Of a DNA stretch of 11,795 bases, positions 8,278-11,698 are shown in pieces (within the stretch, counting starts at the first letter, position 1; each line of letters opens with the position of its first letter). The translations under genes and the position numbers were made by a program. The notes under the pieces were generated by a model, which was not told the DNA's origin, did no database searches, and was given only the letters and a program-made list of their open reading frames with translations. This DNA comes from Polaromonas sp. (GTDB lineage: Bacteria > Pseudomonadota > Gammaproteobacteria > Burkholderiales > Burkholderiaceae_C), in the NCBI GenBank assembly GCA_026786065.1, contig JAJAYS010000145.1, forward strand, positions 1 to 11,795, read 5' to 3'.

Positions 8278-8283
8278 ATTATA
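8278..8283 (-). promoter_or_regulatory. TATAAT -10 box for a leaderless TauE/SafE transcript
   Basis: Reading the minus strand, TATAAT is followed by CAATAAAA and then the ATG of the TauE/SafE gene. An eight-base gap from -10 box to start codon puts the transcription start at or within a base or two of the ATG. No ribosome-binding site is present, consistent with leaderless translation. The -35 region is poor: the 17-bp position reads GTATTT. The box sits at the edge of an intergenic repeat. Confidence 0.45.
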
Positions 8284-8322
8284 TTCGGCTGCAGCCCAAC
8301 AAATACGCGCGCAAGCAGCTAT
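8283..8322 (-). repeat. Dispersed intergenic repeat, copy B
   Basis: The reverse complement begins ATAGCTGCTT and ends AGCCGAAT; it matches copy A at 11659-11698 at 33 of 40 positions without gaps. It occupies the 111-bp spacer between the Bug pseudogene and the TauE/SafE gene. Nothing else is recognised in 8323-8380. Confidence 0.65.
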
Positions 8323-8380
8323 AAAAAATGGAGCGTCTAAAGGACCACTGAAGTCTTGGCGAGGTGCCAGCCTGTGCGGG

Positions 8381-9551
8381 TTAGTCGGCCGTGGCGCCCG
8401 AGGTCTTGACGACGTCGGCCCACTTGGCGCTTTCGGCCCGGATGACCGCCGCATAGCCGGAGGGTCCGCCAAGGTGCCGCACCGCCCCTTCGACTTGGAG
8501 CCAGGACTGGAATTCGGCCGTTGCGGCGACCTGCAAAAGCTGCGCCGACAAGGCCGCAACCAGGCCCACGGGCGTGTTGGCCGGAGCCAGCAGCCCGTAG
8601 GTCAGCGCGCTCTCAAACCCGGCAAAGCCGGGCAGGCCGGATTCGGCCAGCGTGGGCACGTCGGGCATGGCTGGCGCGTTGCGCAAACTGGTCACGGCGA
8701 TGGCGCGCAGCCGAATGCTTTTGACCAGCGCCAGCGCCGGCGTCGGCGTCGGCGCAATGACGCTGAACATGAACTGAACCTGACCGCCGGCCAGGTCGGT
8801 CAGCGCAAGAGCGGTGCCCTGGTACTGGATGTGGATCATTTTCAAACCGCTGCTTTGCGCGAACATCTCGCCGGTCAGGTGCGCGCCGCTTGCGCCGCCG
8901 CTGGAGCCAAAATTCAGCGCGCCGCGCCGCGCACGGGCCAGCGCAATCAGGCCAGCCAGCGTTGTCACCGGCGATGCGGCCGACACCACCAGCACCAGCG
9001 CCGACGAGGCGAACCTGGTCACTGGCAGCAAGACCTTCTGCGGGTGGTACTTGAGCTGCTTGTAGCGCGCCGGCTTGATCAACACCGTGCCCGAATGGCC
9101 CGGCGACCCTTGGCATACCCGTTGCGGTCTGTGGCGGCCGGATCGGGATGGGCTGCAAGGCGCCTTTTTGCAGCCAATAGAGCGACTATCGGCAAGAAAA
9201 GCAACGCGGCAGACCGCCCGCGCCCGGCTAATCACAGGCCGCAGGGGTTCTGCAAAGGGTCGCACAGCAAGCAGCGTGCTGCCGCCGGGCGCACTGCGCA
9301 CCACCTGCTCGGTGCCCGGATTGCCGCCCGCACCGGGCTTGTTTTCTACAACGATGCCGAGCCCATGCAATTCGCCCAGGCTCTTGGCCATTTGCCGGGC
9401 AAACACATTGTTGCCACCCCCCCGGCGGGAAGGCCACCAGAATCTTGATCGGCTTGCCGCCGAGCGAAGGCGGTAGCACCTGCGCATGAACCGCCAGACC
9501 GGAGCCCGATAGCGTGGCACCGAGCAGACAGCGGCGTGAAAGAGGGACCAT
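8381..9551 (-). pseudogene. Bug-family (TctC-like) periplasmic solute-binding protein, frameshifted and interrupted
   Basis: Bug proteins are periplasmic receptors, most often for carboxylates, and many act without an adjacent tripartite tricarboxylate transporter. The natural start is the ATG at 9551 (GGAG nine bases upstream), giving MVPLSRRCLLGATLSG, a Tat-like signal with SRRCLLG, then KPIKILVAFPPGG. At the G7 tract (complement of 9417-9423) the frame must shift by one base to continue as NNVFARQMAKSLGEL and VVENKPGAGGNPGT. After GGSTLLAV some 55 residues have no counterpart in the family, then homology resumes at GTVLIKPARY and runs through LNFGSSG, GGQVQFMF and PDVPTLAESGLPGF to the TAA at 8381. 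The alien segment coincides with a 161-bp inverted-repeat element. A 411-codon open frame spans 8381-9616 but begins in the wrong frame for the signal peptide. It follows pcaF by 77 bp. Confidence 0.8.
9103..9263. mobile_element. MITE-like 161-bp insertion with long terminal inverted repeats
   Basis: The ends are inverted repeats: the plus strand from 9103 inward (GCGACCCTTGGCATACC...) and the minus strand from 9263 inward (GCGACCCTTTGCAGAAC...) agree at 25 of 31 positions without gaps. Weaker symmetry continues inward through GCCGG, CGGG and CTGC blocks. An inner hairpin is formed by GGCTGCAA (9151-9158) and TTGCAGCC (9168-9175). The element lies exactly where Bug-family homology breaks. It encodes no protein and preserves the open frame, as a non-autonomous element might. 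I could not see a convincing target-site duplication, and no second copy is in the window. Confidence 0.55.
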
Positions 9552-9591
9552 CCAGGCATTCTCCGTCTGAGGGAGACTCTTCGCCGGTGAC

Positions 9592-9608
9592 CGGCTGCAA
9601 GGCAGCCG
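9592..9608. other. Strong hairpin between pcaF and the Bug gene
   Basis: CGGCTGC (9592-9598) and GCAGCCG (9602-9608) form a perfect 7-bp GC-rich stem with loop AAG on the plus strand. No T tract follows in the direction of transcription (minus), so it is not a standard intrinsic terminator. It could limit read-through or mark an mRNA processing point. It shares GGCTGCAAGGC with the insertion in the Bug gene (9151-9161). Confidence 0.4.
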
Positions 9609-9628
9609 ACCACCACTCGTTCACAAAG

Positions 9629-10875: not shown

Positions 10876-11556
10876 TCAGGCGGCGACCATTGGCAGAGCA
10901 ATTGGCAAAGAAATTGGCAGAGAAATTGGCAGCCCAACCAGCTGTTCGAGTTCGGCGTGGCCAAGGCCCTCCACCGTGTCGATCAGCCTGAGCCCTTGCG
11001 GCGTGCATTCGAGCGTGGCGACATCGCAGTAGATGCGCTTGACGCAGGCTATGGCGGTCAAGGGGTAGCTGCACTGCGCGACGACCTTGCTCACGCCTTT
11101 TTTGGTCAGCAAGTCCATCATCACCCAGGTCTGGTTGGCCCCCACGGCAAGGTCCATCGCGCCGCCGACCGCTGGTATCGCCCCGGCCTCGCCGGTGTGC
11201 CAGTTGGCCAGGTCGCCGGTGGCGGACACCTGAAACGCGCCCAGCACGCAGATGTCGAGGTGGCCGCCGCGCATCATCGCGAAGCTGTCGGCATGGTGAA
11301 AGTAGGCGCCGCCCTTGAGCAGCGTCACCGGCTGCTTGCCGGCGTTAATCAGGTCGTAGTCCTCCTGGCCAGCGGCCGGTGCCGGGCCCATGCCGAGAAT
11401 GCCGTTTTCGCTATGCAGCAGCACTTCGCGGTCGGCGGCAATGTGGTTGGCCACCAGCGTTGGCATGCCGATGCCGAGGTTGACGACATCGCCCTCCCGG
11501 ATGTCCTGCGCAACGCGGGCCGCAAGCTGGTCTTTGGTGCGTTTCTGGTAAGTCAT
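10876..11556 (-). CDS. pcaJ: 3-oxoadipate CoA-transferase subunit B PcaJ
   Basis: The 226-aa protein is the beta subunit of a succinyl-CoA:3-oxoadipate CoA-transferase, which with PcaI moves CoA from succinyl-CoA to 3-oxoadipate. Glu50 in HSENGILGMGP is the catalytic glutamate that forms the enzyme-CoA thioester. NLGIGMPTLVANHI, DLINAGKQPVTLL, GGAYFHHADSFAMMRGGHLD and GDLANWHTGEAGAIPAVGGAMDLA are PcaJ-like segments. The ATG at 11556 is chosen over longer starts because AAAGG lies seven bases upstream and the added N-terminus would only translate a hexamer repeat. The C-terminus is unusual: after EQLVG it ends in tandem Leu-Pro-Ile-Ser units encoded by a 12-bp repeat. ScoB-type acetoacetate transferases are the alternative. 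Confidence 0.94.
   Translation of the reverse strand: MTYQKRTKDQLAARVAQDIREGDVVNLGIGMPTLVANHIAADREVLLHSENGILGMGPAPAAGQEDYDLINAGKQPVTLLKGGAYFHHADSFAMMRGGHLDICVLGAFQVSATGDLANWHTGEAGAIPAVGGAMDLAVGANQTWVMMDLLTKKGVSKVVAQCSYPLTAIACVKRIYCDVATLECTPQGLRLIDTVEGLGHAELEQLVGLPISLPISLPIALPMVAA
10889..10936. repeat. Four copies of a 12-bp tandem repeat at the 3' end of pcaJ
   Basis: The units on the plus strand are ATTGGCAGAGCA, ATTGGCAAAGAA, ATTGGCAGAGAA and ATTGGCAGCCCA. On the coding strand they encode the repeated tetrapeptide LPIS (LPIS, LPIS, LPIA, then LPM). The unit is a multiple of three, so copy-number change would lengthen or shorten the C-terminus in frame. Confidence 0.88.
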
Positions 11557-11582
11557 GGGACTGCCTTTCGATTGGGGTCGCC

Positions 11583-11612
11583 GGGTGCGGGTGCGGGTGC
11601 GGGTGCGGGTGC
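11583..11612. repeat. Five perfect hexamer repeats in the pcaJ leader
   Basis: GGGTGC is repeated five times without error, starting 26 bp upstream of the pcaJ ATG. It lies in the spacer between pcaI and pcaJ, ahead of the ribosome-binding site. Such a repeat is prone to slippage; changes in copy number could alter spacing or RNA structure in the leader. Confidence 0.88.
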
Positions 11613-11658
11613 GAGTTGGGGTGCAGAAGCGGGAGCTCTGCAAGTTGCTACTTTTTCG

Positions 11659-11698
11659 ATAGCTGCTTACGCCCGTATTTATTTGGTTAAAGCCGAAT
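11659..11698 (+). repeat. Dispersed intergenic repeat, copy A
   Basis: The sequence begins ATAGCTGCTT and ends AGCCGAAT and matches copy B (8283-8322, opposite strand) at 33 of 40 positions. It is preceded by GCTACTTTTT (11647-11656), a string also present in the AT-rich leader at 790-799, where a third, decayed copy may lie. It fills most of the 147-bp spacer between pcaI and pcaJ. Confidence 0.65.

Follow-up and report, generated by a model that had tools for sequence, protein, structure and literature searches.

The interval 9104–9262 of the window, the 11,795-nucleotide stretch of Polaromonas sp. DNA analysed here, is a MITE, a small transposable element that is non-autonomous, and its middle part is a core hairpin whose fold is conserved across elements with different types of ends. 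We consider it likely that the MITE is mobilised by an IS5-family transposase and carries the core as a separate module, which is under selection for its fold and passes between end pairs.

An inverted-repeat element in a Bug receptor gene

The element lies within a gene for a Bug/TctC tricarboxylate receptor. The relevant features of the window are:

9104..9262, plus strand: MITE copy of 159 bp, oriented as the family consensus (from aligned copies)
9104..9122, plus strand: left terminal inverted repeat, an eroded copy of GGACCCTCTGCATAACTC (from an alignment of 30 copies)
9244..9262, minus strand: right terminal inverted repeat (from an alignment of 30 copies)
9100..9103, no strand: left target-site duplication, eroded, CCGG
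9263..9266, no strand: right target-site duplication, eroded, CACA, with one of four bases as in the left copy
9144..9221, plus strand: conserved, structured core hairpin of 78 bp, the segment common to elements with other ends
8381..9616, minus strand: ORF carrying the insertion, a probably decaying Bug/TctC tricarboxylate receptor gene (Pfam TctC, E 9.3e-46; orthologues)
9417..9423, minus strand: run of seven C where the Bug frame shifts, either a true frameshift or an assembly error

The original prediction of an inverted-repeat element of 161 bp at 9103..9263 holds with respect to the element itself, and its edges are corrected to the above limits; 161 bp is the length of the family consensus, which was derived by aligning the 30 best copies in a common orientation, starts with GGACCCTCTGCATAAC and ends with GTTATGCAGAGGGTCC. 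The inverted repeats proposed to bound the interval are indeed present. Their arms, 9103–9133 and 9233–9263, are 81% complementary over 31 nt and form the longest among 25 listed pairs (of 130) with arms less than 3 kb apart. Folding of the interval, suggested earlier as a check, yielded a strong structure of −96 kcal/mol (z −4.46) which none of 200 shuffles equalled. Separately, a second inverted repeat of 52 nt with 79% complementarity (8283–8334 and 11647–11698, 3.3 kb apart) encloses the Bug, thiolase and CoA-transferase genes and is possibly another dispersed repeat. The CoA-transferase ORF contains head-to-tail CGGGTG-like hexamers at its start (11582–11623), encoding a Thr-Arg run, and three 12-bp tandem units, ATTGGCARAGMA, at its end (10889–10931), encoding PISLPISLPIALP.

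The insertion was examined on 15 Bug orthologue loci (L098–L112), which were the top-scoring matches beyond the window when 87 genomes were searched. An empty site was found in 14 of them, with an uninterrupted sequence of the LLLGHSGTV type spanning 12 nt compared to 177 nt in the window, which corresponds to a net insertion of 165 bp or the consensus length of 161 bp plus 4 bp; for the fifteenth locus (L103) no upstream match was obtained. The anticipated break in Bug homology, which ends after GGSTLL(AV) and is picked up again at GTV, is thereby confirmed. On the gene strand, the site corresponding to 9100..9103 reads CTGG, CTCG, CTAG or TTGG in the 14 orthologues. In 12 of the 14 empty-site loci, a neighbouring gene for a thiolase, a TSUP transporter or a kinase is shared with the window.

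The long frame through the element had been described as free of stops and frame changes. The insert indeed leaves the frame unchanged. The gene as such is not intact, however, as its N-terminus, which starts at 9551, sits in another frame than the rest, with the shift at the seven-C run 9417–9423. Moreover, the open frame is weak evidence, because three of the six frames of the consensus are open. The downstream part of the Bug protein shares 61–67% identity with ten orthologues, whereas L099 and L102, whose thiolases are equally distant from the others (85–87%), retain 75–81% in Bug. Judged by its sequence, the Bug gene thus looks to be decaying and, given this low identity and the frameshift, the in-frame passage of the element is probably incidental. 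The MITE probably entered the Bug gene a long time ago in the present Polaromonas lineage, and as 161 + 4 bp happen to equal 55 codons, the frame would have stayed open during the decay.

A MITE family in Polaromonas genomes

The search for dispersed copies was positive. The window genome (G000; 2,928,861 bases in 396 contigs) contains at least 40 matches to the MITE including that of the window (E ≤ 3.9e-28; 176-bp query, 40 of 100 first-look candidates scored), and the window copy shares 77–87% identity with the 39 other scored matches, some of which are partial. With up to three mismatches, the terminal repeat occurs at 145 sites of this genome compared to 11 for a reversed control pattern. 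The copies are short (159–163 bp in 36 copies) and devoid of a transposase gene. For flank analysis we used these 36 copies, which comprise 30 of the 40 G000 matches and six chosen from relatives, with ends set by the consensus. Identical 4-bp flanks were found in nine of them, against a mean of 2.07 when the right flanks were permuted (0 of 5000 permutations as high), and agreement in at least three of four positions in 20, against 9.8. The target duplication comprises 4 bp with the base preference YTAR; a few copies are one base off register. Short gene-free copies, terminal inverted repeats, a target duplication, dispersed occurrence and empty sites together define a MITE, and the earlier reading as a non-autonomous transposon is supported by the copies, the empty sites and the fold.

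Matches to the element were detected in nine of 41 genomes, G000 included. Full-length copies are present in G000, G005, G010 and G011; G003, G016, G018 and G024 match chiefly in the middle of the element and G033 over 27 bp. Perfect end pairs in a scan of named genomes were confined to three records, all of them Polaromonas MAGs. At two places of the window genome (G000:C7:441-524 and G000:C197:2374-2422) facing MITE ends are only 84 and 49 bp across, perhaps reflecting internally deleted copies.

A candidate mobiliser

Four DUF772 transposase loci are found in G000. One of them, locus L091, harbours at 728–1932 an IS of 1205 bp with the ends GGATGGTCTGAATAAC and GGACTCTCTGCATAAC and TTAA on both sides. 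Its ends agree with the MITE consensus end in 12 of 16 and 15 of 16 bases, and its transposase, the frame of which is split into two ORFs, scores above the cut-off of NCBIfam transpos_IS5_4; the MITE resembles this IS5-family element in its ends and duplication. A separate MITE copy adjoins L091. DUF772 transposases of other genera are flanked by comparable ends (L161, L165, L166, L168 and L171), the flanks of L161 being AGAG and not YTAR; these IS end pairs were chosen by eye from lists also containing chance pairs. A DUF4096 IS5-family transposase (L311) is situated between ends resembling those of class II (see below); the right end is present twice at this locus, and an exact duplication is missing. 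YTAR and TNA are target rules of IS5 subgroups. Based on these sequence relationships we infer that an IS5-family transposase recognising GGACCCTCTGCATAAC-type ends would move the MITE in trans and duplicate 4 bp (YTAR).

DUF772 was found in four of six relatives carrying the element or the core and in seven of 15 core-rich genomes, and DUF4096 in six of the 15. The lack of a partner transposase in many core-rich genomes, as far as these two domains are concerned, lowers our confidence in the favoured explanation. Inspection for a core inside an autonomous IS revealed only three separately bounded MITE copies in 26 DUF772 loci and none in 12 DUF4096 loci, with IS borders found for a minority of these 38 transposase loci.

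A common core between different types of ends

The core is enclosed by at least two classes of ends. Class I ends have the form GGA...CTGCAnAA or GCTGAA and belong to elements of 159–163 bp in the Polaromonas copies with a YTAR duplication. Class II ends are GAACGTGTTTACGATC-like and delimit elements of about 160 to 336 bp with a 3-bp TNA duplication; among 19 copies of this class with ends placed at GA(A/G)C, 11 showed an exact TNA duplication, although the scoring of the search favoured duplications. Both classes surround the same core, and G362 holds both of them. A third end type, beginning with GGGCTCGTTAATGAATAA, is found in other families. The survey of ends covered 80 further copies from the best-scoring places of the family scan, of which 11 were without an end pair and many had pairs a few bases off.

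Of 27 family loci, which were assigned to end classes by eye, 21 served to compare core and flanks. Between the end classes the core is 77.5% identical, while the 50-nt flanks share 56% and 54%, compared to 56% for unrelated 77-nt DNA; within the classes the values are 82–83% for the core and 63–67% for the flanks. The core is therefore conserved across end types, and the analysis below demonstrates this for its fold. Like IS5-family MITEs in general, the present element is short and gene-free, has ends like those of a resident IS5-family element and a 4-bp YTAR duplication, and occurs in many copies; it is unlike them in that its structured core is common to elements with unrelated ends and another duplication length.

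Fold and covariation of the core hairpin

A covariance model of the core was built from 32 cores; the window core, itself among them, matches it with an E-value of 3.7e-17. For the fold statistics, 79 cores, each from a different genome or plasmid, were aligned by sequence alone; five of the available loci were omitted as near-duplicate or partial. Paired cells amount to 94.4% compared to 74.9 ± 0.6% upon shuffling, and to at most 47.7% when the partners are slid against each other. Changes on both sides were seen at 17 of 22 pairs (13.7 in shuffles, 3 of 500 reaching 17), and the cells changed on both sides number 329 against 89.6 ± 10.5 (0 of 500); these shuffle counts overstate the certainty, as the cores are related and not independent and the structure was derived from the same alignment. 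In the middle stem three of six pairs display all six standard pair types. The hairpin has two conserved asymmetric internal loops, one in the strings CAAGGCG / CAACGC and the other in GCAG / CAAG; CAAGGCG and CAACGC are nearly invariant and partly unpaired, the AA of CAACGC being present in 79 of 79 cores. When folded singly, four of five cores reached z-values of −4.7 to −6.5, and that of the window had only a modest z of −2.32, matched by 5 of 200 shuffles.

A comparison with Rfam 15 gave no family at the gathering score for the window. Among 18 other loci only tRNA was above threshold, outside the core, with nothing for L133, and L301 gave four sub-threshold microRNA matches, the best with 25.2 of 110 bits.

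The conserved palindrome could also be explained as a double-stranded DNA site, such as a cruciform or a site to which a nucleoid protein or the transposase binds. Palindromic DNA is able to extrude, and the conserved loop strings would offer possible contact sites. However, such a site has no need for the matched changes of the middle stem with their full range of pair types. Furthermore, G–U cells outnumber A–C cells by 85 to 23, and by 52 to 23 after removal of the two largest columns, which speaks against a double-stranded site, but counted by columns the G–U excess (12 of 18, p 0.24) is not significant and leaves this argument in favour of the rival. Altogether, we regard a double-stranded site as unlikely.

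We rather propose that the middle 78 bp are a separate module selected for its fold and carried by small elements with unrelated ends. The core would most likely act single-stranded, with either a host or a transposition protein attached to it, and might pass from one IS5-type end pair to another. Function as an RNA hairpin upon transcription appears plausible, at slightly less than an even chance, and a role as a DNA hairpin, in replication or transposition, is less likely. We infer that the core is a structured RNA or single-stranded-DNA module riding on IS5-type ends; its protein binding, the exchange of ends and its benefit are likewise proposals.

Distribution of the core

The core model was applied to samples of the family, order and class of Polaromonas, the latter being Gammaproteobacteria in GTDB. 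Matches were obtained in 111 of 299 genomes of the family sample (63 of 141 genera; 188 genomes without match), in 94 of 399 of the order sample (305 without) and in 75 of 369 of the class sample (294 without), many of the class-level matches being weak (E 1e-4 to 1e-7). The scans used the stricter filters of Infernal with 15, 11 and 12 candidates scored per genome, respectively; G000 is counted in all three samples and a few genomes are common to more than one. As a partial control, 343,392 bases around known cores produced 170 model matches in 162 sources, hence 8 beyond one each. Up to 71 matches were recorded in one genome. No match was detected by BLAST in E. coli and phage records.

BLAST also located the core on plasmids of Cupriavidus, Comamonas, Acidovorax and Azotobacter, with no annotation below the matches except one "hypothetical protein". 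The Azotobacter case (L283, plasmid pAcX50f of Azotobacter chroococcum) belongs to Pseudomonadaceae, outside Burkholderiales. Three IMG/VR contigs with a model-confirmed core (L280, L281 and L282) may be phage or host DNA. Cores on these plasmids and viral-collection contigs would suit a simpler scenario, in which the MITEs are plain deletion derivatives and the core is an old IS-internal sequence spread horizontally without selection on its fold. This scenario also accords with the common view of MITEs as IS lacking the transposase, as expressed in PMC5896051. Yet a spread of whole elements would have brought the ends along, while the flanks between the end classes are at background and the core is kept. 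In addition, the both-side changes at most of the pairs argue against drift without fold selection, and no core was seen within the transposase loci checked, borders being defined for the minority noted above. A plain deletion derivative therefore appears quite unlikely to us.

In several loci a second core-like hairpin is located less than about 200 bp from the first. The two have opposite orientations in L271, L275, L277 and L279 and point the same way in L143; such arrangements recall paired REP units. REPINs are dispersed hairpins, single or paired; they cause no target duplication, and a RAYT transposase is encoded in the genome. The core hairpins are likewise dispersed and single or in pairs, and mobilisation of a REP/REPIN-like element by a RAYT (Y1) transposase might thus be envisaged. 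Nevertheless, the present elements have target duplications and IS-type terminal repeats, and a comparison of the ORFs at 73 loci revealed no recurrent gene beside the core, the groups consisting of the element's own translation (12–14 loci) or of 2–4 loci. We consider this origin extremely improbable.

A bias of the core towards one replication strand was rejected for four closed genomes (permutation p 0.36, 0.56, 0.17 and 0.30; 44 listed places of 47 matches, then 15, 71 and 20, two genome lengths being rounded); a bias apparent in the first 15 places of one genome was gone in the longer list.

Copies in other coding frames

A copy at L011 (1505–1665; G000:C95) sits within an ORF for pyruvate dehydrogenase E1 and keeps its frame; it adds 64 residues, which in terms of the E. 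coli AceE chain fall between positions 170 and 172, the ORF being open over 782 codons. As an in-frame case it appears more telling than that of the apparently decaying Bug gene. Another copy extends the frame of an AlkA-like ORF past its domains. A frame spans the copy at 16 of 30 loci inspected, as judged from ORFs, and among ten spanning ORFs scanned five have Pfam domains and two (TctC and PDH E1) homology on both sides of the insert.

These cases raise the question of a protein-coding palindromic insert similar to the Rickettsia palindromic elements, kept in frame as a tolerated peptide of host proteins. The net insertion of 3 × 55 bp in Bug, the in-frame addition in the AceE-type ORF and the continued AlkA-like frame would agree with this idea, in-frame insertion being clear for AceE and net in frame for Bug. 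However, the Bug and AceE copies are read from opposite strands of the element and in different frames, so that their peptides differ and no conserved encoded peptide emerged from comparing the two. The number of open consensus frames is roughly that expected from base composition (an estimate), copy lengths vary, the Bug gene appears to be decaying, and homology flanks the insert in two of the ten ORFs scanned. A selected peptide insert is hence very unlikely. A frame-neutral length as a selected trait was also considered and not upheld, the lengths spanning 159–163 bp.

Relation to known elements and implications

Similarities to established repeats are evident. Rickettsia palindromic elements are, according to PMC10969869, also palindromic, about 150 bp long and sometimes in frame in protein genes. 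The present element differs from them by having no single conserved peptide, by the use of both strands and by a frame-keeping that looks incidental. The sequences of ERIC, RU and Correia repeats presumably differ from that of the present element. In being small, mobile, palindromic and dispersed these repeats resemble it, again according to PMC10969869. As a source on Polaromonas MITEs this review names Mattes et al. 2008 (strain JS666 by title), which possibly concerns the same element. TIMEs, inverted-repeat miniature elements derived from Tn3, are comparable as mosaic and non-autonomous elements and are distinguished by their Tn3-type ends. TIMEs are not known to have a conserved hairpin core. 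Six genus names sought in PMC3733652 were not present there, and no earlier description of the core hairpin was found in the literature searched, mostly outside subscription journals. The suggestion of a kind of repeat not previously described hence fails for the MITE, which is of a known kind, and stands for the core hairpin as far as Rfam 15 at its gathering score, E. coli and phage records and this literature gave no match. We give an even chance to the broadest reading, namely that the core is an undescribed structured nucleic-acid module, a transposon cargo across Gammaproteobacteria (GTDB) which swaps IS5-type ends and parasitises transposases while belonging to none of them.

As a repeat without an Rfam entry, occurring up to 71 times per genome, and with its two conserved loops, matched changes and presence in many genera, the core hairpin is a ready target in the search for a protein that binds it or for a role as RNA. 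MITEs are commonly regarded as remnants of IS whose insides drift freely. Here, the inside is the conserved part and the ends appear interchangeable, implying that the core has a function.
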